From contig NZ_JAAGOA010000004.1 in the NCBI RefSeq assembly GCF_010550675.1, positions 124,001 to 188,000 on the forward strand: DNA of 64,000 nucleotides, in the 5' to 3' direction. Below are positions 1,312 through 60,873 of this stretch, piece by piece. Both the position numbers and the translations under genes were made by a program. The DNA is from Phytoactinopolyspora halotolerans (lineage in GTDB: Bacteria; Actinomycetota; Actinomycetes; Jiangellales; Jiangellaceae). Each line of letters starts with the position of its first letter. Positions within the stretch are counted from its first letter, which is position 1. The notes below the pieces were generated by a model. The model was given only the letters and a program-made list of their open reading frames with translations, made no database searches and was not told the origin of the DNA.

Positions 1312-3741
1312 ATGACCGCGGTGGCGTACTGGTTCCGGCTCGACGCCCGGCGTCGGTGGCGGTCGCTGCTGGTGTTGACGCTGCTGATCGCCGTCGCCGC
1401 CGGCACGGTCATGACGGCCGCCGCCGGTGCCCGGCGCGGTGGCACCGCGGTGGATCGGCTGTTGGAGCAGACTTCTCCGGCGACCGTGGTGGCTCAGCCC
1501 AACCAACCCGGGTTCGATTGGGACGCCGTCCGGCAACTGCCGGAAGTGAAGGCGCTCGGCACCTTCGCCCTCACCGATCAGTACGTGATCGACGAGGTTC
1601 CCAGGGATGCCTGGATCGGCCGGTATCCCGTGGCCGACGATGAGATGCTGCGCACCATCGAGCGGCCCGTCGTCCTCGAGGGCCGGCTACTGAATGCCGA
1701 CCGGGCCGACGAGGTGGTGGTCGGCCCGCGATTCCGGGACACCTTCGGGCTGGGCGTGGGCGACACCCTGACGCTGCGGCTGTATGCACCTCAGACGCTC
1801 GACGAGTTGGTCTTCTCCGGCGACGCCACCGAGGTGGAGCCCGATGGCCCCGTGGTGGAGGCTCGGATCGTCGGCGTGGTCCGTTCGCCGGCTCAGTTGC
1901 TCTCCGGCGACGAGGCGGCGGACTCCGACGGCGGGCTGCTCACCTCACCCGCGCTATTCGAGCAGTACACGCCCAACGTCCTCGGAGCCTCCGGCGAAGG
2001 CCTGGTCAATGCGGCCGTGCGGCTGCGCGGCGGCGCGAACGCGATCCCCGATTTCAAGGAAGGCTTGGAACGGGTCACCGGCCGATCCGACATCGGTGTG
2101 TGGGATCTCACCGCGGAAGCCCGGCATGCCCGCGACGTGACGGACTTCGAAGCGGACGCACTGCTGGTGTTCGCGACGGCGGCCGGGGTGGCGGCGTTGT
2201 TCCTCGTCGGCCAGGCGGTGGTGCGGTACGCCGCCGCGACCGTCGCCGACCTGCAGACCCTACGGGCCGTCGGTATGACGCCGCGCCTGACAGCTGTGAC
2301 CAGCGCCTGCGCCCCGCTGATCGCGGCCGTGGTCGGGTCGCTTTTCGGTGTGATCGTCGCCGTCGCCGCCTCGCTGTGGTTCCCGATCGGCACGGCAGCG
2401 CAGTTCGAGCCCGCTCCTGGACTCGACGTCGACGCGGCGGTCCTCGTGGCCGGCCTCGTCGCCGGTTCGATCTTGGTCGCGGCCGGCACGGCGGGTGCAT
2501 CGCTGCTCGCGCTTCGGGCGTCCCGATCGTCGTCGCCGCGGCGTTCCGTCGTCGCCGCGGCCGCCACTCGCGCGGGCGCACCGGTCCCGGTGGTTGTCGG
2601 AACGCGGTTCGCGCTGGAACCGGGGCACGGCCGTCACGCGGTGCCGGTCCGGCCGGCGTTGATCGGGGCCGTCGTGGGAACCCTCGGCGTGCTCGCCGCG
2701 TTCATGTTCTCCGCCGGCGTCGAGGACGCCGCCGACCACCCGGAGCGCTTCGGGCAGGTGCATGAGCTCGAGGCGTTGGTCGGCTTCGAGGGTGAGGACG
2801 GCGGCCCGGTGGACGAGCTTCTCCCGGAGATCGCCGCGGACCCAGCCGTCGCGGCGGTGAACGACGCGCGCGTCGCCGTCGCGGAGGCCGGCGACATGCC
2901 GGTGCCGCTGTACACGCTCGACCCCGTCGATGCCCGGTGGGAGCCGGTGGTGGTCGAAGGCCGGGCGCCGGACGGGCCGGATGAGGTGGCCCTGGCGCCG
3001 GCCAGCGCCGAGGCGATAGGCGCGTCGGTGGGCGACACAGTGCAGGTGACCGGCACGTTGGGCGTGCGGGACCTGACGGTCAGCGGGTTGGCTTTCGTGC
3101 CCGAGTTTCCGAGCCACAACACCTACGTGACGGGTGGCTGGGTGAGCGCAGTGGCCTACGATCAGCTGTTCGACCCCGCCAGTTCGTTGTCGCCGGCGTT
3201 CAAGTTCCACCTGGTGCACGTGGCGCTGCAACCCGGTGCGGATGCGGAGGCGGTAGCCGCACGGATCGAGGCGGCCCTCGGTGCGGGGGAGATGTTCTCC
3301 CAGCCCGGTCCGCCCAGCCCACTCGCGGAGCTCCGGCAGGTCAGGATGTTGCCGGTGTTCCTCGCCGCGTTCTTGGCGGTGCTGGCACTGGGCGCCGTCG
3401 GGCATGCGCTGGCGACCGCGGTGCGTCGGCGCCGGCATGACGTCGCCGTGCTCCGGGCGCTGGGGATGACACGAATCCAGGCACGTGGGGCGGCATTGAC
3501 CCAGGCCACGGTCCTGGCGCTGCTGGGCTTGCTGATCGGCATGCCGCTCGGCGTGGCTCTGGGGCGGATGGTGTGGAGGTACGTGGCGGACACGACACCT
3601 CTGTTCTACGTGCCGCCGGCGGCGGCGCTCGCGCTGTGGCTCATCGTCCCGATCGCCCTGCTGGCCGCAACTCTGTTGGCCGCCTGGCCCGGACACAGGG
3701 CGGCGTCGATGCGGGTCGGCCACGTCCTGAGGACGGAGTGA
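1312..3741 (+). CDS. FtsX-like ABC permease (tandem paralog 2)
   Basis: A full-length 809-residue permease. An N-terminal helix (about residues 18-38) is followed by a periplasmic-type domain, three membrane segments near 280-410, then a second copy of the same plan: a helix near 450, an extracytoplasmic domain and three C-terminal segments. This is the duplicated FtsX-domain layout of large actinobacterial permeases. The family works with an ATP-binding subunit in lipoprotein or peptide export or resistance; no substrate can be read from the sequence. The first 100 bases are almost identical to those of the paralog at 6233, and the last 45 to those of the paralog ending at 6225, suggesting recent duplication or gene conversion. 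ATG start, 6 nt after the upstream stop. Confidence 0.92.
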   Translation: MTAVAYWFRLDARRRWRSLLVLTLLIAVAAGTVMTAAAGARRGGTAVDRLLEQTSPATVVAQPNQPGFDWDAVRQLPEVKALGTFALTDQYVIDEVPRDAWIGRYPVADDEMLRTIERPVVLEGRLLNADRADEVVVGPRFRDTFGLGVGDTLTLRLYAPQTLDELVFSGDATEVEPDGPVVEARIVGVVRSPAQLLSGDEAADSDGGLLTSPALFEQYTPNVLGASGEGLVNAAVRLRGGANAIPDFKEGLERVTGRSDIGVWDLTAEARHARDVTDFEADALLVFATAAGVAALFLVGQAVVRYAAATVADLQTLRAVGMTPRLTAVTSACAPLIAAVVGSLFGVIVAVAASLWFPIGTAAQFEPAPGLDVDAAVLVAGLVAGSILVAAGTAGASLLALRASRSSSPRRSVVAAAATRAGAPVPVVVGTRFALEPGHGRHAVPVRPALIGAVVGTLGVLAAFMFSAGVEDAADHPERFGQVHELEALVGFEGEDGGPVDELLPEIAADPAVAAVNDARVAVAEAGDMPVPLYTLDPVDARWEPVVVEGRAPDGPDEVALAPASAEAIGASVGDTVQVTGTLGVRDLTVSGLAFVPEFPSHNTYVTGGWVSAVAYDQLFDPASSLSPAFKFHLVHVALQPGADAEAVAARIEAALGAGEMFSQPGPPSPLAELRQVRMLPVFLAAFLAVLALGAVGHALATAVRRRRHDVAVLRALGMTRIQARGAALTQATVLALLGLLIGMPLGVALGRMVWRYVADTTPLFYVPPAAALALWLIVPIALLAATLLAAWPGHRAASMRVGHVLRTE

Positions 3742-6232: not shown

Positions 6233-8728
6233 ATGACGGCGGTGGCGTACTGGTTCCGGCTCGACGCTCGGCGTCGGTGGCGGTCGCTGCTGGTGCTGAC
6301 GCTGCTGATCGCCGTCGCCGCCGGGACGGTCATGACGGCCGGCGCCGGTGCCCGGCGCGGATCGAGCGCCGTCGACCGGCTACTCGCGGAGACCATGCCG
6401 GCCACCGTGCGGGTGGAGCCGAACCGCCCGGGGTTCGACTGGGACGCGGTTCGGGCGCTGCCCGAGGTGGCGGCGCTCGGAGTGATCGCGTACAGCGGGT
6501 TCGAGATCGACGGCGAACCGGCGGGAGACTCCCTGGCGCTGCCGCCGGTGGACACCGGCATGCTCCGCACCGTTGAGCGGCCGGTGGTGCTCGAGGGCAG
6601 GGCGGCGGACCCGTCGCGCGCCGACGAGGTGGTCGTCACCCCGGCTTTCGAACGCACCCGTGGCACAGGCGTCGGTGACACCGTCACGCTCGGCCTCTAC
6701 ACCCCCGGGCAGATCGACGTCGTGCAGGGCCCGGACACCGCGTATGCCAGTACCGACGACGGAGTCCTCGGCCTGTACACGCCGGAACAACTGCAGGCCG
6801 CCCTCGCCGCCGGCTGGGACATCAACGAGACCGCACCGGCGGCCGGACCGGTGATCGAGGCGACCGTGGTCGGCGTCGTGCGTTCACCCTGGTTCGGGGA
6901 CCGGCTGCACGGCGCGGGATACGTGATCCCGTCGGCCGGGCTCTATCAGCAGTTCACAGCGCATTTCAGCGGCGCACGGGACCTGGCGGGCACCGGTGCC
7001 CTGGTCCGGCTGCACGGCGGTGCGGCGGCGATCCCGAAGTTCCGTGAACACCTGGCACAGGTCGCCGGGCAGTCCGACATCGTCGTCGTGAACCAGGCGT
7101 CGTGGGCGTCGACGACCCGCGAGGTGACCGGCTTCGAGGCGACGGCGCTGTTCGTGTTCGCCGTCGTCAGTGCGGTCGCGGCGGTCTTCCTGGTCGGGGT
7201 GGCGGTCGCGCGTCATGCTGCGGTCACCGTGACCGAGCTGACGTTCATGCGCGCGGTCGGGATGACACCGGGGCAGGCGCGCTCGGCGGCGATCATCGGC
7301 CCTGCATGCGCCGGGGTGGCCGGAGCCGCACTCGGAGCCGCCGCGTCGATACTGGCGTCGCGCTGGTTCCCGATCGGTACCGCGTCGGTCGTGGAGCCGG
7401 CGCCGGGCGTCGACGTCGATGTGGCCGTCCTCGCGGCCGGGCTGGCCGGCGTTCCGTTCCTGGTGATATCCGGCGCCGTCGCGGCGTCGGCGTTCGCATC
7501 GCGCTCGACCGAGCGACATGCGTCTGCGCGACGTTCGACGATGGCCGCGGCCGCCTCGGCTGCCGGGCTGCCGGTCCCGGTGGTGGCGGGTACCCGGTTC
7601 GCGTTCGAGCCCGGACGGGGACGTCGGGCGGTGCCGGTCCGGCCGGCGCTGCTCGGCGCGGTCGCCGGCGTCACCGGCGTGCTCGCCGCGCTGACGTTCT
7701 CCGCCGCGGTGCACGATGCGGCCACCAACCCCGCTCGGGTCGGGGTCTTGCACGGCGCCGAGGCGTATGTCGGTTTCAACGATTTCGCGTTCGTCGAGAC
7801 GTCCGCCGACGCCGTGTTCACCGCGCTGGCGGAGACGCCCGGAGTCACCGGTGTTCAGGACGTCGTCGGGAACGTGGCGGAGGCCGGTGCCGAGAGCGGA
7901 ACCGAACAGCTCGTCGTGATGTCGCCGGTTCCGCTGGGTGCGCCCGCAGAACAGATCATCACCGAAGGCAGGCCGCCGGCAGGTCCGGCCGAGGCGATGC
8001 TGGGGCTGCGTACGGTGGACGCGCTGGGCGCCGGCGTCGGCGACACGATCACCCTCACCGGCACCAGCGGGACCACAGACCTGACGGTGGTGGGCGTGGG
8101 CGGCGACGCCGTCGACACCTCGGTGGTGACCACCCGTGCAGCGTACGAGACGCTTTTCGGTGAACGGTTCCAGTTCCACATGGGCGAGGTCGGGTTCGAG
8201 CCCGGCATCGATTTCGAGACCATGCTGCCGCGCCTCCGCGACGCGCTCACCGCCGTCCCCGGTGCGAGCCCGGACACCGTCGGGATCATCCCGCCCGAGT
8301 TCGACGATCCCGCCGGGCTTCGGTTCATGCGGCCGTTGCCGCTGTTCCTGGCCGGATTCGTCGTCGTGCTGGCGCTGGGGTCGGTGGGGTACGCGCTGGG
8401 CGCGGCGGTGCGGCGTCGTGGTCCTGAGATAGCCGTGCTCCGGGCGCTGGGAATGACACCCGGGCAGTCGCGCCGTGTGGTGATCACCCAGGCCATCGTG
8501 CTGACGCTGGCGGGGCTTGCGGTCGGTGTTCCGGTAGGGCTGGCGGTCGGCCGGACCGTCTGGCGTTCCGTCGCCGACGCCATGTACATCCACTACGTTC
8601 CACCTGCGGCGGTGTGGGCGCTGGTGCTGGTGGCGCCCGTCGCTCTGCTCGTGGCCGTGCTGTTGGCGGCGGTGCCGGGACGCTGCGCGTCGTCGTTGCG
8701 GATCGCGTCCGTCCTGCGGGCCGAATGA
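6233..8728 (+). CDS. FtsX-like ABC permease (tandem paralog 4)
   Basis: An 831-residue permease, last of the array. The N-terminus is almost the same as that of the paralog at 1312 (MTAVAYWFRLDARRRWRSLL), while the C-terminal half is diverged: the conserved RRRRHD loop is RRRGPEIAVLRALG and the end is LRIASVLRAE rather than RVGHVLRTE. It also has a 25-30 residue insertion near residues 160-195. The gene lies 17 nt upstream of a histidine kinase, which suggests that the kinase and regulator control, or are signalled by, this permease array. That arrangement is common for actinobacterial FtsX/MacB transporters. Confidence 0.92.
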   Translation: MTAVAYWFRLDARRRWRSLLVLTLLIAVAAGTVMTAGAGARRGSSAVDRLLAETMPATVRVEPNRPGFDWDAVRALPEVAALGVIAYSGFEIDGEPAGDSLALPPVDTGMLRTVERPVVLEGRAADPSRADEVVVTPAFERTRGTGVGDTVTLGLYTPGQIDVVQGPDTAYASTDDGVLGLYTPEQLQAALAAGWDINETAPAAGPVIEATVVGVVRSPWFGDRLHGAGYVIPSAGLYQQFTAHFSGARDLAGTGALVRLHGGAAAIPKFREHLAQVAGQSDIVVVNQASWASTTREVTGFEATALFVFAVVSAVAAVFLVGVAVARHAAVTVTELTFMRAVGMTPGQARSAAIIGPACAGVAGAALGAAASILASRWFPIGTASVVEPAPGVDVDVAVLAAGLAGVPFLVISGAVAASAFASRSTERHASARRSTMAAAASAAGLPVPVVAGTRFAFEPGRGRRAVPVRPALLGAVAGVTGVLAALTFSAAVHDAATNPARVGVLHGAEAYVGFNDFAFVETSADAVFTALAETPGVTGVQDVVGNVAEAGAESGTEQLVVMSPVPLGAPAEQIITEGRPPAGPAEAMLGLRTVDALGAGVGDTITLTGTSGTTDLTVVGVGGDAVDTSVVTTRAAYETLFGERFQFHMGEVGFEPGIDFETMLPRLRDALTAVPGASPDTVGIIPPEFDDPAGLRFMRPLPLFLAGFVVVLALGSVGYALGAAVRRRGPEIAVLRALGMTPGQSRRVVITQAIVLTLAGLAVGVPVGLAVGRTVWRSVADAMYIHYVPPAAVWALVLVAPVALLVAVLLAAVPGRCASSLRIASVLRAE

Positions 8729-11851: not shown

Positions 11852-11886
11852 CCGTCCCCGCCCCATGTGTGCCTGAGTGTGTGCAC

Positions 11887-11950
11887 GTCGTGGGCTCAGG
11901 TAACGCTTGGTGCGCCCATGACCCTTCCAACCGTTACGTGAGCCCACGAG
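11887..11950. repeat. Palindromic direct repeat, copy A (upstream of AbiEi-like gene)
   Basis: Two 24-nt arms (11887-11910 and 11927-11950) are inverted copies with 3 mismatches around a 16-nt loop, able to form a long hairpin. A second copy lies at 13050-13113 in the same orientation with 58 of 64 positions the same and an identical right arm. The pair encloses a single gene. Confidence 0.85.
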
Positions 11951-12019
11951 GCCGCCAGGTTATCCACAACCCCGGCCATGCCCTTCCCGTCCAGGCGCCG
12001 GCACCCGGACGATAGCGGG

Positions 12020-13024
12020 ATGTCGGCACCCCTTACTCGCCTTCCGGCGCAGATCGAGGACGCGCTCGCCGCTGACGGCGGCCTGCTGACGGTTGCCCGC
12101 ATGCGGGAGGTCGGCATCACCCGGCCCCGCCTTGGGCGCCTGGTGCGCGCCGAGCTTCTCGTCCGGCTGGCCAAGGGTGTCTACGCCAGCCGGGAGCAAT
12201 ACGAGACCGCACCGCCATGGCCCGCCTTCGCGCTGCGTTCGCGAGCGTTCACACAGGCGTGCGGGCCGAGCGCGTGCGCCGCCGGATGGTCGGCCGTGGC
12301 GATCCGAGGGCTGCCGGCGATCGGTCCGCCCCCAGACAAGCCGCTGGTCGCCGTGGAACGAGCGGTGGGATCGGCGAACACCGCCTTCGGCGAGATCCGC
12401 GCGGTCACGTTGCCGGCGGAGGACCGTACCCTTGTCGACGGTTGTGCGACCACGACCGATGCCAGGCTTGCCGTGGACCTGGCCCGGACGTCCTCCGTAG
12501 ACGCGGCCTTGGTGGTGGCCGACGCGGTGCTGGCCTCGGGCACGACCGTCGAGCAGCTGAGCCGTGTGCTCGACACGCAGAACGGCTGGTCGGGGACGCG
12601 GAATGCGCGATGGGTCATCGAACACGCCGATGCGTATGCGGAGTCCGCTCTGGAGACGCTGGGGCGTCTGGCGTTCCTCGAACATGATCTACCCGTGCCG
12701 ATCTCCAACGCCTGGGTGGATCTTGGGGCCGACCGATTCCGGCCGGACCACCTCCTCGATGATCGGTGGCTGGTGTTCGAGGGGGACGGGGATCTGAAGT
12801 ACAACGACCGTCTCGACGCGGCACGTGTCATCGGCGACCAGCGAGAGCGGGAGTGGCGTCTGCGTGAATACGGTCTCGAGATCGTCCGGTACGGCTGGTC
12901 GGATGCCCGCCACCACCGTCGCCGGCTCGCCGAGCGGTTCCGGGCGGTCATCGCCGCTCGGGTTCCGCGGGACCGGCCGTGTCCGTGGTACCGGGAGAAC
13001 CGGACATATCGGCGGGTGGCATGA
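12020..13024 (+). CDS. AbiEi-like HTH protein with C-terminal DUF559/Vsr-like nuclease fold
   Basis: 334 residues. The N-terminal part (about 5-60) looks like the winged-helix of AbiEi-type antitoxins (ALAADGGLLTVARMREVGIT, then GVYA). The middle resembles the AbiEi C-terminal region. The end (about 235-320) has the pattern of a PD-(D/E)XK-type DUF559 domain: FRPDHLL, then VFEGDGDLKY and a basic helix with REREWRLREYGLEIVRYGW. The family is described around type IV toxin-antitoxin and restriction-like genes, but no AbiEii partner is adjacent. ATG at 11978 is also in frame; 12020 was chosen because similarity starts there. The gene is the only one between the two palindromic repeats at 11887 and 13050. 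Nuclease activity is inferred. Confidence 0.72.
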   Translation: MSAPLTRLPAQIEDALAADGGLLTVARMREVGITRPRLGRLVRAELLVRLAKGVYASREQYETAPPWPAFALRSRAFTQACGPSACAAGWSAVAIRGLPAIGPPPDKPLVAVERAVGSANTAFGEIRAVTLPAEDRTLVDGCATTTDARLAVDLARTSSVDAALVVADAVLASGTTVEQLSRVLDTQNGWSGTRNARWVIEHADAYAESALETLGRLAFLEHDLPVPISNAWVDLGADRFRPDHLLDDRWLVFEGDGDLKYNDRLDAARVIGDQREREWRLREYGLEIVRYGWSDARHHRRRLAERFRAVIAARVPRDRPCPWYRENRTYRRVA

Positions 13025-13049
13025 ATCGGATTCGGGAGCGGCTGCCGGC

Positions 13050-13113
13050 GTCGTGGGCTTAAGTAACGCTTGGCGCGCCCGTGATCCGTCCAACCGTTAC
13101 GTGAGCCCACGAG
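13050..13113. repeat. Palindromic direct repeat, copy B (downstream of AbiEi-like gene)
   Basis: Same orientation and length (64 nt) as copy A at 11887. The right arm (13090-13113) is identical, the left arm differs at 2 of 24 positions and the loop at 4 of 16. It starts 26 nt after the stop of the enclosed gene. Confidence 0.85.
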
Positions 13114-13142
13114 GCGCTCCGCCTAGGCCTGGACATTGCACT

Positions 13143-21938: not shown

Positions 21939-21993
21939 CCATGATCATGAACACTAACCGTGCTATGAGAACGGTAAGTGTTCATGATCATGG
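21939..21993. repeat. Palindromic repeat family P1, copy a
   Basis: Arms 21939-21961 and 21971-21993 (23 nt, one mismatch) around a 9-nt loop; both ends carry CATGATCATG. Copies occur at 37730 and 50667. It lies just after the dacB stop, so it may act as a transcription terminator, though no U-run follows. Confidence 0.85.
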
Positions 21994-22163
21994 TCGAGGC
22001 GGCTCGCACGGCGCGGCCGTTCGACCGCGACTGCTGGATGCGCAAGCTCTGAGCTGGTAGCCTTACAGAAAGGCTCCTCGAGGTGCCTGCCAGGAAAGCC
22101 TGCGTTGCTGCCAGCGCTGCCCCAACAGGGGATCGGCTCCTGGAGGCTCCTCGGGGAGTCTTT

Positions 22164-23009
22164 TCAGTATGGGCTTTTGCAGTCTGGGCATGGCCACCAC
22201 GGTTGAGTAAATGCCAGCTTGCTGTTCGGCCTCACCTGCATTCCTAGGCTTATTACACATTCTTCGGATCTGCGGATTTGGTGCCAAATCTTGAGTAAGT
22301 AGGCACCCTCCGTATTCTGCCACACGTTTGGCCAGAACGCTGCCTTGAGGAAGCCCGCGTATACATCGGCGATCTGGCTCATCTCGTACTTGTCAGAACT
22401 CACCCAGCTCAGTTTGGAAACGAGGTCGAAAGGAACATTCTTGTCCTGCCGTTTCTTGATCTGGAAGTATCGGTGTGTGTCTGTATGGTCGTGCTTCTTG
22501 ACGTGGGAGAAATGCACCTTTACCTGCCGTTTCCCGTCCGGCCAAGCGCGTGCTGCCCACAGGACACGTTGAAGTCCGGCATACGCTATGACGTTGTAGA
22601 AGAGCGTGACGTCGTCGCGGTACGTGCCATCGCTGAGTTGCGACTTGTCTGCGACCACGTACACAACCCTCAGACCTTTTAGTGTGCTGAGAATGTTGGC
22701 TGCATGGACACGACGATCGTGATTCTTGAGATCGTCCTTCCAGGAGAGCGGCCTATCGCTTGGCACATTGAAGTCCGTCCGTAACCGGCCCAGGGCCTGT
22801 CGTGCTGATCGTTCCGCATCATCATCCACCATCACGGCCGCCATTCCGAAGATCGGGCTGGCTCTGCCCTTCAATATTCCGCGGTCCCCTGTCTCGTCGA
22901 TATAGGCCCGGAGGAGCGGCAGTTTGTGCGTCTCTGGCGGCGCTACGAACGGCTGGTAGTCGATCGAAGCCGAGAGTCGATTGGAGGTGGTCGGAGCGAC
23001 GTTCGGCAT
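22164..23009 (-). CDS. DUF3800 domain protein
   Basis: 281 residues. LLRAYIDETGDRGI with a following VDDD stretch, SWKDDLKN, then YVVADKSQL, and near the end DKYEMSQIADVYAGFLKAAF match the DUF3800 pattern, a family of probable RNase H-like fold proteins common in mobile and defence islands. Function is not established. The coding region is clearly lower in GC and uses AT-rich codons unlike its neighbours, which suggests horizontal gain. It stands alone between dacB and recO. I chose the ATG at 23009. Confidence 0.78.
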   Translation of the reverse strand: MPNVAPTTSNRLSASIDYQPFVAPPETHKLPLLRAYIDETGDRGILKGRASPIFGMAAVMVDDDAERSARQALGRLRTDFNVPSDRPLSWKDDLKNHDRRVHAANILSTLKGLRVVYVVADKSQLSDGTYRDDVTLFYNVIAYAGLQRVLWAARAWPDGKRQVKVHFSHVKKHDHTDTHRYFQIKKRQDKNVPFDLVSKLSWVSSDKYEMSQIADVYAGFLKAAFWPNVWQNTEGAYLLKIWHQIRRSEECVISLGMQVRPNSKLAFTQPWWPCPDCKSPY

Positions 23010-28841: not shown

Positions 28842-28889
28842 ACGACGGAGAGTTCTTGTCGCTGGGGCAACCACTTCTTTCCGACGTTT
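28842..28889. repeat. Imperfect palindromic direct repeat, copy C
   Basis: 48 nt matching copy D at 29938 at 35 positions in the same orientation. It shares a right end TTTCCGACGTTT versus CTTCCGACGTTT and a common GTTNTTGTCGCTG core. Inverted arms are present but decayed. It ends at the stop codon of the enclosed AbiEi-like gene. Confidence 0.65.
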
Positions 28890-29806
28890 CACGCGGTGCG
28901 GGCAAGCCCTGCCGCCACAGCCGCCTCGATCTCGCGCAGGACGGCATCCGGCTCTTCTCGGAGGCGACGCGGAGACACCGGAACCACCGTCCAGCCGAGG
29001 GACGCGTACAGCGCGCGCCTGCGCTCCGTGCGTTCGACGCTGTCGCCGAAGCGGTGCCACTCGGCGGAATCGATCTCGACGACGACACGGGCTTCGGGCC
29101 AGCACGCATCGGGCCTGATCCGGTGCATCGTGCCAGGAAGTAGCGCGTTCCACCGTGGTTCGATCAGCACGGTGGAGCGGCGGACGAGGTCGCGCAGTTC
29201 GCACTCGGGTGCAGAACGGCATCCCGCGGTGAGATCGTCCAGGCTGCGGCGTACAAGGCCGGACCCCTTCCACCGGGCGTCACCGAGCATCGTGAGGATG
29301 CGATCCGGCGTGGTCAACCCTCGTTGAACCGCTTCGCACAACAATGCCCGAATATCGCGAAGCGACGACATGCCGCGGCAGACGTCGAGTACGGCCTGTT
29401 CGGGACTGGCGGTCGGTATCCCCGCGATGTCCCGCGACTCGGGCATCTTCGTGGTGCGCCGAACCACCACGAACGGTGTAGTACGACGTCTGCTGCGCTC
29501 GGGGATGAGAACCACCGTCTCCGCCGTCTCGGGTACATAGCGCAGCCCGTAGGCGCGGCAGGCCATAGCGCCGCTGACCACTCCGCCGTCGCCGGTCGTC
29601 AGCAGCGCTGCCCGGAGGTGATGGCGTGGCTGAAGCGGTCCGGTGAAGGTCGCGTACACGCCGCGCGTCACATGCTGCCATTTCCGTCCACGACCGAGCG
29701 CGTGAGCGATCGCCGCCGGGGTGACACCTGCGCACAGCGCCTGCCGACGGGTGACCAAGCCGTCTTGCGCGCTGATGAGCTGCGTGAGCTCGTCGGGAAT
29801 CACCAT
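28889..29806 (-). CDS. AbiEi-like HTH protein with C-terminal DUF559 domain (second copy)
   Basis: 305 residues. The N-terminal AbiEi-type winged helix (ISAQDGLVTRRQALCAGVTP, then HVTRGVYAT) is followed by the AbiEi-like middle (GIPTASPEQAVLDVCRG). The end is a clear DUF559/Vsr-like nuclease region: HRIRPDACWPEARVVVEIDS, EWHRFGDSVERTERRRALY and WTVVPVSPRRL, which gives the PD-(D/E)XK-type acidic residues. It is a diverged paralog of the gene at 12020. No toxin partner is adjacent. ATG at 29806 or 29812 both fit. It is enclosed by the repeats at 28842 and 29938. Nuclease activity is inferred, not shown. Confidence 0.75.
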   Translation of the reverse strand: MVIPDELTQLISAQDGLVTRRQALCAGVTPAAIAHALGRGRKWQHVTRGVYATFTGPLQPRHHLRAALLTTGDGGVVSGAMACRAYGLRYVPETAETVVLIPERSRRRTTPFVVVRRTTKMPESRDIAGIPTASPEQAVLDVCRGMSSLRDIRALLCEAVQRGLTTPDRILTMLGDARWKGSGLVRRSLDDLTAGCRSAPECELRDLVRRSTVLIEPRWNALLPGTMHRIRPDACWPEARVVVEIDSAEWHRFGDSVERTERRRALYASLGWTVVPVSPRRLREEPDAVLREIEAAVAAGLARTA

Positions 29807-29937: not shown

Positions 29938-29985
29938 GCGTCGGAAGGTTGTTGTCGCTGTGGCGATAAGAACCTTCCGACGTTT
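29938..29985. repeat. Palindromic direct repeat, copy D
   Basis: A perfect 12-nt inverted repeat CGTCGGAAGGTT (29939-29950) / AACCTTCCGACG (29971-29982) around a 20-nt loop. It aligns with copy C at 28842 (35 of 48 positions). It lies between the second AbiEi-like gene and znuB. Confidence 0.7.
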
Positions 29986-37729: not shown

Positions 37730-37784
37730 CCATGATCATGAACACTAACCGTGCACATAGCACGGAAAGTGCTCATGATCATGG
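37730..37784. repeat. Palindromic repeat family P1, copy b
   Basis: Arms 37730-37754 and 37760-37784 match at 22 of 25 positions around a 5-nt loop. It lies between the glyS stop and the stop of the convergent ABC permease (2 nt away), and shares the CATGATCATG ends of copies a and c. Likely a terminator for both. Confidence 0.85.
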
Positions 37785-45010: not shown

Positions 45011-45662
45011 GTGGAGACCACAGCACCGGCGTCGTCGCCCGGGTGTTGTGGTGATTTACGTGGTGATCTCCGTCGCGCTGTTGATCGTCGCCGGCGCCGT
45101 GTGGGTTGTGAACGTGATGTTCAAGCCGGACGGAGCCTCCGGGAACGCCGGGTCGGGCATGCCGGGCGACGACGAGCCAGCCGGTCCGGCCGCGACCTCG
45201 AGCGGACGCGGCGGTGACGAGCCGGCCCGTTTCGAGGTGTCGGTACCGGAGATCGGGGTGCACGCGCCGGTTGTCGACGTCGGATCCAGCGACGACCGGG
45301 TGCTGGCTCCGCCCGATGACCCGTTGGTGGCCGGCTGGTGGAGCGAGGGCGCGGCCCCGGGTGCCGAGGCCGGAACCGCCCTGCTCGTCGGGCATGCGCT
45401 GGAGTCTGGCACCGCGGTGTTCAACGGCGTCGGCGGACTGGAGGAAGGCGACACGATCACGCTCAGCGGTGAGGCGGAGGCAGTGATGGACTACGAGGTC
45501 GTCGCCGTCGATGTATTGCCGCCGGAGGAGCTCGCCGAACAGGCGGAGACGCTGTTCGCCCAGGACGGTCCGGCGCGTCTGGTGCTGGTGACCTGCGAAG
45601 GCTGGGACGGCGACGACTACACCTCCAACATCGTCGTCACCGCCATCCCCACCGAGCCCTAA
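45003..45662 (+). CDS. Class E/F sortase
   Basis: 219 residues. An N-terminal membrane helix (about 15-38), a linker, then the sortase barrel with the catalytic His in LLVGHALESG, and Cys-Glu in LVLVTCEGWDG where an Arg would follow. Sortases join a sorted surface protein to peptidoglycan or a pilin. Probable substrate is the preceding proline-rich protein, which overlaps it. The stop codon is the first three bases of a 90-bp palindrome. Confidence 0.85.
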   Translation: MSEWRPQHRRRRPGVVVIYVVISVALLIVAGAVWVVNVMFKPDGASGNAGSGMPGDDEPAGPAATSSGRGGDEPARFEVSVPEIGVHAPVVDVGSSDDRVLAPPDDPLVAGWWSEGAAPGAEAGTALLVGHALESGTAVFNGVGGLEEGDTITLSGEAEAVMDYEVVAVDVLPPEELAEQAETLFAQDGPARLVLVTCEGWDGDDYTSNIVVTAIPTEP

Positions 45663-45749
45663 ATGATCATGTGAAGTGGGTTTTCTCGTGCACTACCATG
45701 CCTGCAGACCTGGTGGTGCACGAGAAAACCCACTTCACCAGATCATTTA
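45660..45749. repeat. Palindromic repeat family P2, copy a (90 nt)
   Basis: Arms of about 43 nt match at 38 positions, with a CTGCAG-containing centre. It begins TAAATGATCA, whose TAA is the stop of the sortase, and ends TGATCATTTA on the complement, giving the TAA stop of the convergent ramB. A near-identical 90-nt copy is at 60151. Likely a bidirectional terminator. Confidence 0.9.
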
Positions 45750-47183
45750 GGCTGGGGCGTGGCGGTCGAGGAAGGTGTAGACGTCGGTGTCGTCGACGCC
45801 GGGGAACGTGCCCGGCGGTAGGGCAGCCAGCAGGTGCGAGCGCACCCGGGCGCTCGGCCAGGCGTGTTCCGCCCACCGCCCGGCCAGTCCCTCCGGCGGG
45901 CGACGGCAGCACGACGGGTCCGGGCAACTCGACGTGGCCCGCACCGTCGTCTCCCGGCCCTGGAACCACTTGGCGTGCGCGTACGGCACGCCGACGTCGA
46001 TCGCGAAGTCGCCGTCCGACGTGCGCTCCACATGCGTGGTGCACCAGTACGTGCCGCGCCCCATGTCCGTGTACTGGTAGTGCGAGGCGTACCGGTCCCC
46101 GGCGCTGAACACCGCCCGGGCCGCCCAGTAGCGACACACCATCTGGCCCTCGATGGCGCCGGTGACGTCGGCGGGGAACGTGACGTCGTCGTTCTCGTAC
46201 GCCTTGTAGATGATGCCGTCCTCACCGACGCGCATGAAATGGATCGGGATACCCAGGTGATGCGTCGCGAGATTGACGAACCGGTGCGCCGCCGTCTCGT
46301 AGGTGACCGCGAAGACGTCGCGCAGGTCCTCGATGGCCAGCGCCTTCGCCGACTTCGCCCGCTGCAGGAAGTCGACGGCCGGTGCCTCCGGCATGAGCAA
46401 CGCCGCGGCGACGTAGTTCACCTCGACCCGTTGCCGCAGGAAGTCCGCGTAGTTCTCCGGCTCGGAGTGGCCGAGCGCGAAATGTGCCAGCGTCTGCAGC
46501 ACGATGGTGCGCGGATCGTGGTTGGTGTGACTGGGCAGCGGCAGATAGATGCGGCGGTTGCGCAGGTCGGTGATGGACCGGGTGGCGCGTGGCAGGTCGC
46601 CGGCGCGATGCAGGGTGAACCCGAGGTGTGCGGTGAGGTCGTTGACGCCGCGTTCGGTGAGCGGCCCCTTGGTGTGTCCGATCGCCGACGACAGCCCGGA
46701 CGCGGTCTCCTCCAGCTCGGCGAAGTAGTTGTCCCGGTCGCGCATCCGCTGCCGCAGCTCGGCGTTGGCGCGCCGGGCCTCCTCCGGTGTGGCGGCCTGC
46801 TCGCTTGCCTTCCGTTCCAGCTCGGCGTGCAGACCCACCAAGGCTTCCAGCGCCTCGGTCGGCAACTTGCTGGTGACTCCGACCTGCGGCAGGCCGAGAC
46901 TGGCGTACAGCGGACTGACCTGGGCCCGGGTTAGCGCGATCTCCAAGGCCGCGCGGTGCGAGGGCGCCTCCGGCTTGAGCAGATCGGCCATGTCGACGCC
47001 GAGCGCGCCGGCGAGCACCTGGATCAGCGTCAGCCGCGGCTCACGTTTCCCGTTCTCGATCTGGGACAGCAGCGACGGCGCACGGTCGACCGCCTGAGCC
47101 AGCTCGCCCAGGGTCATGCCCTTGGCCTTGCGAGCATGCCGGATCCGCTGCCCAAGGGTCGCGAGGTCGATGTCGGTGTCCAT
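45747..47183 (-). CDS. ramB: RamB-like regulator (XRE HTH with IrrE/ImmA-like and short-chain-fatty-acyl domains)
   Basis: 478 residues. The XRE helix-turn-helix (LGQRIRHARKAKGMTLGELA and RAPSLLSQIENGKREPRLTL) is at about 10-65. The middle includes TLAHFALGH, the zinc-peptidase-like fold of ImmA/IrrE family. The C-terminus has the Cys-rich CCRRPP and YWCTTHVERTSDGD, as in the ScfR/RamB family. In Corynebacterium RamB controls the glyoxylate genes. Its divergence from aceA here supports the same role. ATG at 47183 was chosen over an upstream ATG (47195). The stop is supplied by the P2 palindrome. Confidence 0.85.
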   Translation of the reverse strand: MDTDIDLATLGQRIRHARKAKGMTLGELAQAVDRAPSLLSQIENGKREPRLTLIQVLAGALGVDMADLLKPEAPSHRAALEIALTRAQVSPLYASLGLPQVGVTSKLPTEALEALVGLHAELERKASEQAATPEEARRANAELRQRMRDRDNYFAELEETASGLSSAIGHTKGPLTERGVNDLTAHLGFTLHRAGDLPRATRSITDLRNRRIYLPLPSHTNHDPRTIVLQTLAHFALGHSEPENYADFLRQRVEVNYVAAALLMPEAPAVDFLQRAKSAKALAIEDLRDVFAVTYETAAHRFVNLATHHLGIPIHFMRVGEDGIIYKAYENDDVTFPADVTGAIEGQMVCRYWAARAVFSAGDRYASHYQYTDMGRGTYWCTTHVERTSDGDFAIDVGVPYAHAKWFQGRETTVRATSSCPDPSCCRRPPEGLAGRWAEHAWPSARVRSHLLAALPPGTFPGVDDTDVYTFLDRHAPA

Positions 47184-50666: not shown

Positions 50667-50717
50667 ATGATCATGAACACTATCCGTGCTATGTGAACGG
50701 ATAGTGTTCATGATCAT
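50667..50717. repeat. Palindromic repeat family P1, copy c
   Basis: Arms 50667-50687 and 50697-50717 are perfect 21-nt inverted repeats around a 9-nt loop. It starts 12 nt after the aceB stop. It shows compensated changes relative to copy a, as expected for a structure kept as a hairpin. Confidence 0.88.
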
Positions 50718-60114: not shown

Positions 60115-60150
60115 TCACCCAGCTGCTCTCCACTATCCACCCACCCGTCC

Positions 60151-60240
60151 TAAATGATCATGTGAAGTGGGTTTTCTCGTGCACCACCAGGTCTGCAGAC
60201 CTGTTGGAGCACGAGAAAACCCACTTCACATGATCATTTA
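60151..60240. repeat. Palindromic repeat family P2, copy b (90 nt)
   Basis: Same length as copy a (45660-45749). Outer 40-nt arms match at 38 positions, with GTCTGCAGAC in the centre. Its right end TTTA gives the TAA stop of sodC. The left end TAAATGATCA is 36 nt after the CBS gene stop. Confidence 0.9.
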
Positions 60241-60873
60241 GGAGTCGCCGGTGGGTTGGATGGTGCCGCAGGCGATGCGGTCGCCGGCGTCGCCGGTGTC
60301 CAGGGTGTCCTGGTCGGCTTCTCCGTACCGCTGCGGGATGTTCGCCTGGTTGTCGGGCTGCTCATGCACGATGACGGCCGCCCCGGCCTCGGTCAGGTCA
60401 TCCAGCCGGAACCGATCGGTGACCACCGCACTCTCCGCGCTGCCATCGGTCTTGACCAGCAGCGGGGGAAGGTCGCCGGCATGCTCCGGGTGGTTCTCGT
60501 CGCCGGCGGTGTAGTGCCCGCCAGCACTCGTGAATGCACCCTCCGGGGCGTCGGCGTCGCACATCGGCGACTCGTGGATATGGAAGCCCTTGTAGCCAGG
60601 TTCCATATCCCAGAAGCGAGCCTCGACGACGGTTCCGGACTCGTGCTGCGCCAGCAACACCTGCCCGATCTCGGATCCGCCCACATCGACCACGGCGACC
60701 TGGACCACGCCTTCCGCGGTCGCGTCATCGATGATCTCGGCGACGCTCGTGTCGCCACCATGGCCGTCCGTGTCGTCCGACGTGCCCGGCGTGTCGCTGG
60801 GGGACTCGGCACAGGCCGCCACCGCCACCAGCGACATCACCATCAGCGGCAGTGCCCAGGGACGCCATTGCAT
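60238..60873 (-). CDS. sodC: Superoxide dismutase [Cu-Zn], lipoprotein
   Basis: 211 residues. A lipoprotein-like N-terminus (SLVAVAACAESP) places it outside the membrane. The metal site is seen in GFHIHESPMCD, SAGGHYTAGD, HPEHAGDLP and AAVIVHEQPDN; the disulphide Cys pair is in SPMCD and ACGT. It turns superoxide into hydrogen peroxide. ATG at 60873. Its stop codon is the end of the P2 palindrome. Confidence 0.93.
   Translation of the reverse strand: MQWRPWALPLMVMSLVAVAACAESPSDTPGTSDDTDGHGGDTSVAEIIDDATAEGVVQVAVVDVGGSEIGQVLLAQHESGTVVEARFWDMEPGYKGFHIHESPMCDADAPEGAFTSAGGHYTAGDENHPEHAGDLPPLLVKTDGSAESAVVTDRFRLDDLTEAGAAVIVHEQPDNQANIPQRYGEADQDTLDTGDAGDRIACGTIQPTGDS

Follow-up and report, generated by a model that had tools for sequence, protein, structure and literature searches.

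A single plausible gene in this stretch of DNA (the window, by which we mean all 64,000 nt analysed) stands between two copies of one palindrome, and the question raised by the locus is whether gene and repeats form a unit that moves, the gene product acting on its own palindrome. The window lies on contig C34 of a 7.3-Mb genome (G000), which was compared with four congeners (G001 to G004). The two copies (11886-11952 and 13049-13115, both on the forward strand and in the same orientation) are 67-nt direct repeats, 91% identical and 1163 nt apart from start to start, and each is itself an inverted repeat with a 16-nt loop: the arms of the first (11888-11910 and 11927-11949) are 23 nt long and 91% complementary, those of the second 26 nt and 85%. 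The first-pass annotation had described two palindromic units alike at 58 of 64 positions and 1163 nt apart, with inverted arms around a 16-nt loop and enclosing one gene of AbiEi-like or restriction fold, and all of this was borne out. The repeats are not a product of chance, since the locus has a direct-repeat score of 55, against a maximum of 31 among 90 control pairs of outer flanks, and the palindrome is found again elsewhere in G000.

The enclosed gene and its relatives

The reading frame of the gene (11978-13024, forward strand) is open from 11978, and its start is probably the ATG at 12020, a prediction based on the orthologue L025, which begins MSAPL at the equivalent position. We know of no agreed function for the family. 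In the AlphaFold model of the product (pLDDT 88.6), residues 23-218 (12044-12631, forward strand) match the AbiEi antitoxin 6y8q (Z 9.8, rmsd 5.3, 181 residues aligned; Foldseek E 6e-6), and residues 223-330 (12644-12967, forward strand) have their best-scoring match in the homing endonuclease I-Bth0305I (3r3p; Z 11.7, rmsd 2.7, 97 aligned), with Z 11.0 for 3hrl and Z 9.4 for Vsr (1cw0; rmsd 2.8, 105 aligned). Foldseek performs poorly for this second half (E-values of 0.49 for 3r3p and 0.88 for 1cw0, neither significant), so that the match rests on the Z-scores. Pfam places an AbiEi_4 domain at residues 28-70 (E 6.6e-6) and finds it in 17 of 19 aligned members, with a weak match to DUF559 in three of them; the NCBIfam search returned no family for the window protein. 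Residues E226, D257, E268, D270, G271 and K274 are invariant in all 19. The protein is an AbiEi-like, DNA-binding winged-helix half fused to a Vsr/EDxHD-type nuclease. The family is under purifying selection, with dN/dS of 0.13-0.26 in five pairs of homologues (a sixth pair was omitted for a stop in the stretch taken, later placed upstream of the start), and at least two of the 23 copies in the genus (L020 and L080) are broken.

PADLOC AbiEi profiles also match the protein (best E 3.8e-13), which would suit an orphan gene of defence or toxin-antitoxin type, its repeats being scars of recombination. However, the three neighbouring proteins scanned with Pfam at the window locus are two response regulators and a beta-lactamase-fold protein, with no AbiEii toxin among them, and the repeats are gene-specific palindromes dispersed elsewhere, so that this reading is barely tenable. 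A toxin-antitoxin pair was rejected on the same lack of AbiEii among the three neighbours.

The seven family matches in G000 amount to six copies, one of them split, and G001 to G004 hold 2, 7, 4 and 6 matches, respectively. Matches were present in 21 of 22 genomes of the family and in 139 of 197 sampled genomes of the class (up to 11 each, only the best 11 per genome being scored, so that higher counts are possible), and plasmids gave a single weak match, in Tsukamurella, annotated DUF559. To judge how general the arrangement is, 450 nt on each side of 95 loci (23 in the genus, 40 in the rest of the family, Jiangellaceae, and 32 in the class) were compared, the 90 outer-flank pairs of the same loci serving as the control with the maximum of 31 given above. 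Split copies were merged and each gene was counted once; L164, L188 and L194 were excluded as lying at contig ends and L042 as a weak match. The class loci favour near relatives, because they were the highest-ranking hits. Flanking direct repeats outscore every control (more than 31) at 19 of the 23 genus loci, 8 of the 40 in the rest of the family and 14 of the 32 in the class. Hairpins with a score of at least 13 were found upstream and downstream, respectively, at 17 and 19 of the 23 genus loci (outer flanks, 0/23 and 1/22), at 16 and 13 of the 40 other family loci (1/40 and 0/39) and at 20 and 14 of the 32 class loci (1/32 and 1/29). The repeat-flanked arrangement is general, but it is a minority in the family outside the genus.

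The window itself holds a second, divergent paralogue (28913-29806, reverse strand; profile match, E 3.3e-18), outside the 95 loci, which lies between direct, partly palindromic repeats (28843-28889 on one side and a palindromic one at 29939-29985 on the other). At the gathering score, Rfam matched neither palindrome of the window locus, and its only match in the window was a DUF3800-IV RNA (69.6 bits, 22071-22161), which adjoins an ORF of unassigned product (22164-23009, reverse strand). The gene beside this RNA was considered as a second such system and rejected, there being no direct palindromes flanking it.

Between the first palindrome and the gene stands TTATCCACA (11960-11968, forward strand), its sole copy in the window and identical to the DnaA-box consensus. 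The same sequence lies upstream on the gene strand at 13 of 24 genus loci (the 23 and the second paralogue), 2 of 40 family loci and none of 32 class loci, and in none of the outer controls. Its core, TCCACA, occurs there at 22/24, 32/40 and 18/32 loci, against 0, 0 and 1 outer controls, and on the other strand at 6, 6 and 15, against 4, 2 and 0; on either strand, it is present at all 32 class loci, against one control. The consensus of the motif is GTTATCCACAG in the genus, GTTGTCCACAG in the family and GTCGTCCACAG in the class. These upstream motifs are presumably DnaA boxes, although there are no DnaA-binding data. That the motif stays fixed while palindromes and proteins diverge points, by inference, to recognition by a host factor rather than by the element's own protein.

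Dispersal of the palindromes and their tie to the gene

Palindromes differ between gene clades. The window's own (type 1) was counted with a covariance model made from eight G000 copies, whose strand rows usually include each place twice: 56 rows were obtained in G000, 49 in G002 and 62 in G004, 5 in G001 and 2 in G003, and the palindrome occupies at least 25 places in G000, the genome that these counts favour because it provided the model. G001 is without a near relative of the window gene (best 39%), and G003 has two relatives, 58-60% identical, with different palindromes. Type 2 (TTCTCGTGC...GCACGAGAA, a pattern drawn from copies of G000, G001 and G004) gave 73, 61 and 22 forward matches in these three genomes, all of which have the cognate gene. 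It gave six in G002, each with 2-3 mismatches, and none in G003, and the cognate gene was not found in either; the reversed pattern, used as a control, gave no matches. A third type, with arm CTGGCTCAGAGTTGCG, is present 16 times per strand in G003, where it flanks the gene L027, with two single-arm matches in G001 and none in G000, G002 or G004. This co-occurrence of gene and palindrome is a correlation, and five genomes are few for such a test. Lone copies outnumber the cognate genes about 10 to 70 fold; two of type 2, the type flanking the gene at G000:C1:518161-519045, lie in the window at 45658-45751 (AAATGATCATG...TTCTCGTGC...) and 60148-60243.

Several type-2 copies lie within about 260 bases of contig ends in G000 and G001 (for example, G000:C25:4-47 and G001:C2:119-162), so that these palindromes may be points at which the assemblies break, and the copy numbers may be lower bounds. 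The window also contains a third dispersed family, (CC)ATGATCATGAACACTA..CCGT, in three copies within the 64 kb (21939-21993, 37730-37784 and 50667-50717), with one arm also in L012 at 6285 and an ATGATCATG end in common with type 2; no owner gene was found for it. At L270 (G000:C9), two copies of yet another type (CCATGATCATCGAGGAT; 2169-2244 and 3549-3604) adjoin a duplicated segment of a flanking gene, as if the repeats had driven a tandem duplication, and at L009 (7165-7298) an extra copy lies inside a 150-nt repeat near a frame-broken paralogue, with a 28-nt half-arm unit in three tandem repeats (7215-7298).

Among 34 of the 95 loci (score above 31 and a hairpin in both repeats, minus L020, L035 and L080), palindrome similarity and protein similarity show a weak to modest correlation that exceeds chance (Spearman 0.157, a value reached in 9 of 2000 permutations). 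The palindromes change fast, since none of the 478 pairs with protein identity below 40% reaches a palindrome similarity of 0.35. Their structure is selected, changes in the arms being compensatory: covariation scores 0.231, whereas shuffles give 0.110 (none of 500 as high) and a slid alignment at most 0.084. Stem pairs changing on both sides (15 of 23) are not above shuffles (53 of 500 as high). The alignment had 106 rows, which are not independent, because both strands of each place were included, and the score is favoured by the fitting of the alignment to the structure.

In size, dispersal and places, these palindromes resemble REPs, as far as the accessible part of PMC3733652 describes them, and 17 of the 51 type-1 copies listed carry CGTC or CCTC at one end (CGTC in 11). 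It could be proposed that they are ordinary REPs or MITEs mobilised in trans by a transposase of known kind (RAYT or an IS), the AbiEi-nuclease gene being a passenger. Such a proposal is very improbable, since the Y1 transposase (PF01797) was found in none of the five genus genomes, in a search that responded in 5 of 14 controls and did not cover DDE-type transposases, and each of the three palindrome types follows an AbiEi-nuclease gene of its own. RAYT as the mover was rejected as far as this Pfam search reaches.

Occupied, lone and empty sites

The anatomy of type 2 relates the lone copies to those bearing a gene. Outer arms and one core make up a lone copy, which is almost perfectly palindromic, about 92 nt long and sharply bounded (AAATGATCATG...CATGATCATTT); both outer arms are present in 19 of the 20 G001 copies inspected. 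In the gene-bearing form of G000 and G004, a core stands on each side of the gene; the left outer arm is found only on the upstream core and the right outer arm only on the downstream core. As the outer arms are split around the gene, the gene-bearing element equals the ends of a lone copy plus the gene and a second core. In G001 the palindrome downstream of the gene is cut short, and L240 and L244 are lone copies with arms as in G004, without the right outer arm. Within one genome the outer arms agree with each other, but they vary from genome to genome.

The places where the palindromes lie allow a reading in which nothing moves: they would be terminators or operators bound by an AbiEi-like regulator, and the dispersed copies its regulon. 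AbiEi antitoxins bind inverted repeats. Lone copies are mostly intergenic, since, of six inspected in G000, two overlap a GC3-rich ORF (one an antisense ORF, the other the end of an ORF) and four overlap none, and 22 type-2 copies have C-rich left and G-rich right flanks resembling a terminator stem (C at -3 in 21, G at +3 in 22). Entry of type 2 into matched terminator stems was rejected as an idea, the flanks pairing with their own partners only slightly better than with others (p 0.052). Against the regulon stand the sharp ends and split arms just described, the nuclease residues invariant in 19 of 19 aligned members, a palindrome copy number that follows the gene, and the presence or absence of whole units at orthologous sites; we consider it decidedly unlikely.

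These sites were compared among species representatives, not strains. At the window locus, G004 has 27 bp where G000 has 1290, which is an empty site; in G002 the orthologue is present and its two palindromes have changed in concert, G001 is rearranged, and no flanks were recovered in G003. Locus A (type 2) bears the gene in G000, G001 and G004, a lone degenerate palindrome in G002 and no palindrome in G003. Locus C bears the gene in G003 and G004; it is an empty site in G001, its flanks being 24 nt apart, against about 1460 nt in G003, and unidentified sequence of about 1.3 kb occupies the place in G000 and G002. At locus B, the gene is at one place in G000, G002, G003 and G004; G001, without gene and palindrome, is no clean empty site, because about 1.1 kb of other DNA is present instead. 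Locus D yielded only one flank in G001. Six lone sites of G000 were sought in the relatives, two of them (C63:106030 and C21:9922) without a usable flank pair. The site C63:198920 is common to G000 and G002, with arms that differ compensatorily, and its flanks are contiguous in G001, G003 and G004; C65:112038 is occupied in G000 and G002; the G002 alignment shows no palindrome at C1:264859; and C23:265858 is absent in G002, the G001 gap there holding a type-2 palindrome. The intergenic flanks were too diverged for a target-site duplication to be read (window locus, loci A and C, four lone sites). Occupied, lone and empty states thus exist. The first-pass annotation, which had likened the unit to REP-associated transposases and homing nucleases and looked to further repeats beside such genes, single palindromes and empty sites, was upheld on each point, with the three states met at one locus and a homing endonuclease as the best match of the nuclease half.

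That match, the equivalence of a gene-bearing copy to a lone copy with gene and duplicated core, and the occurrence of lone and gene-bearing states at one locus would also agree with homing: lone palindromes would be cut by the nuclease and mended on the template of a gene-bearing copy, thereby gaining the gene and a second core, so that the lone palindrome is the target and not a derivative. Yet the lone copies, for all their excess over the cognate genes, remain unfilled, the spread of lone palindromes to new places is left unexplained, and, as the gene-bearing state of locus A is common to three genomes, its loss in G002 is simpler. Homing is therefore unlikely.

The proposed element and known systems

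The reading that we favour, with a probability of roughly two in three, is that the window unit is a minimal mobile element that works like REP/RAYT with an unrelated enzyme; mobilisation is inferred, without biochemistry. The element would consist of palindrome, DnaA-box-like motif, one gene and palindrome. Recognition of the arms of the element's palindrome is assigned, by inference, to the AbiEi-type half, and nicking or cutting to the nuclease, probably when the palindrome is extruded as a hairpin at replication, a substrate that is also inferred; such cutting would allow copies of the palindrome to enter intergenic sites resembling terminators. If the protein acts in trans, gene-less palindromes could as a consequence multiply to tens of copies, and a gene-bearing copy could be reduced to a lone palindrome by recombination between its flanking repeats. 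In genomes that have lost the gene, the dispersed copies would be expected to decay. With tens of uncut palindromes beside a would-be nuclease, cutting must be conditional; control through DnaA is again an inference. The mobile-element reading has evidence against it in the rest of the family, where repeats exceed the control at only the 8 of 40 loci counted above.

Whether all this amounts to a new class of minimal mobile elements, widespread in Actinomycetes, in which an AbiEi-type winged-helix plus Vsr/EDxHD nuclease would act in trans to mobilise its own palindrome and would be expressed in step with replication via the DnaA box, and so to an independent invention of the REP/RAYT arrangement without an HUH, DDE, tyrosine or serine recombinase, is for us an evenly balanced matter. 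No published description of AbiEi/DUF559 genes with dispersed palindromes was found in titles and the openings of abstracts among the papers listed, most subscription journals being outside coverage. To our knowledge, the Vsr/EDxHD-type nuclease fold has not been known as a stand-alone transposase, and it would, if the reading is true, be a spreader of palindromes. If each gene owns dispersed palindromes, a large gene family and a class of intergenic repeats, both unexplained, would account for each other. Specificity is open to direct test, because arm sequences have been swapped naturally between orthologues.

Among known systems, IS200/IS605 elements and MITEs likewise have a gene between subterminal palindromes and gene-less derivatives with the same outer ends, but the enzyme here is unrelated and no target-site duplication has been demonstrated. 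Type IV AbiE shares the fold of residues 23-218 through its antitoxin (6y8q), whereas here a nuclease is fused to it and AbiEii is not among the three window neighbours. With Vsr and the EDxHD homing endonucleases such as I-Bth0305I, the window protein has in common the nuclease fold (Z 9.4 and 11.7) and the conserved acidic and lysine residues of the EDxHD/PD-(D/E)XK group, the nuclease-half Foldseek matches not being significant. Unlike those endonucleases, it is found with no intron, intein or conserved target gene at the loci studied, and its own palindromes are dispersed through the genome; membership of the group is untested at its key feature, the cutting of the gene-less allele. CGTC-tagged REPs are small dispersed palindromes reported without a dedicated transposase, with stems of 8-9 bp and in five phyla, Actinobacteria not among them, according to the accessible part of PMC3733652; CGTC, as noted, also occurs in type-1 copies. 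By the tests made, the system is not a member of REP/RAYT, having no Y1 enzyme and no consistent GTAG tag beside the hairpin (inspection of 51 type-1 and 20 type-2 copies). In REP/RAYT (REPtrons, TnpAREP), enzyme and palindrome have co-evolved, according to the accessible part of PMC8266576. The enzyme there is an HUH Y1 protein and the palindromes measure 20-40 bp, whereas here an AbiEi winged-helix half is joined to a PD-(D/E)XK-type nuclease, the palindromes measure about 60-95 nt and a DnaA-box-like motif is added; the likeness lies in the arrangement itself, with a single gene between copies of a palindrome that also recurs at many intergenic places.
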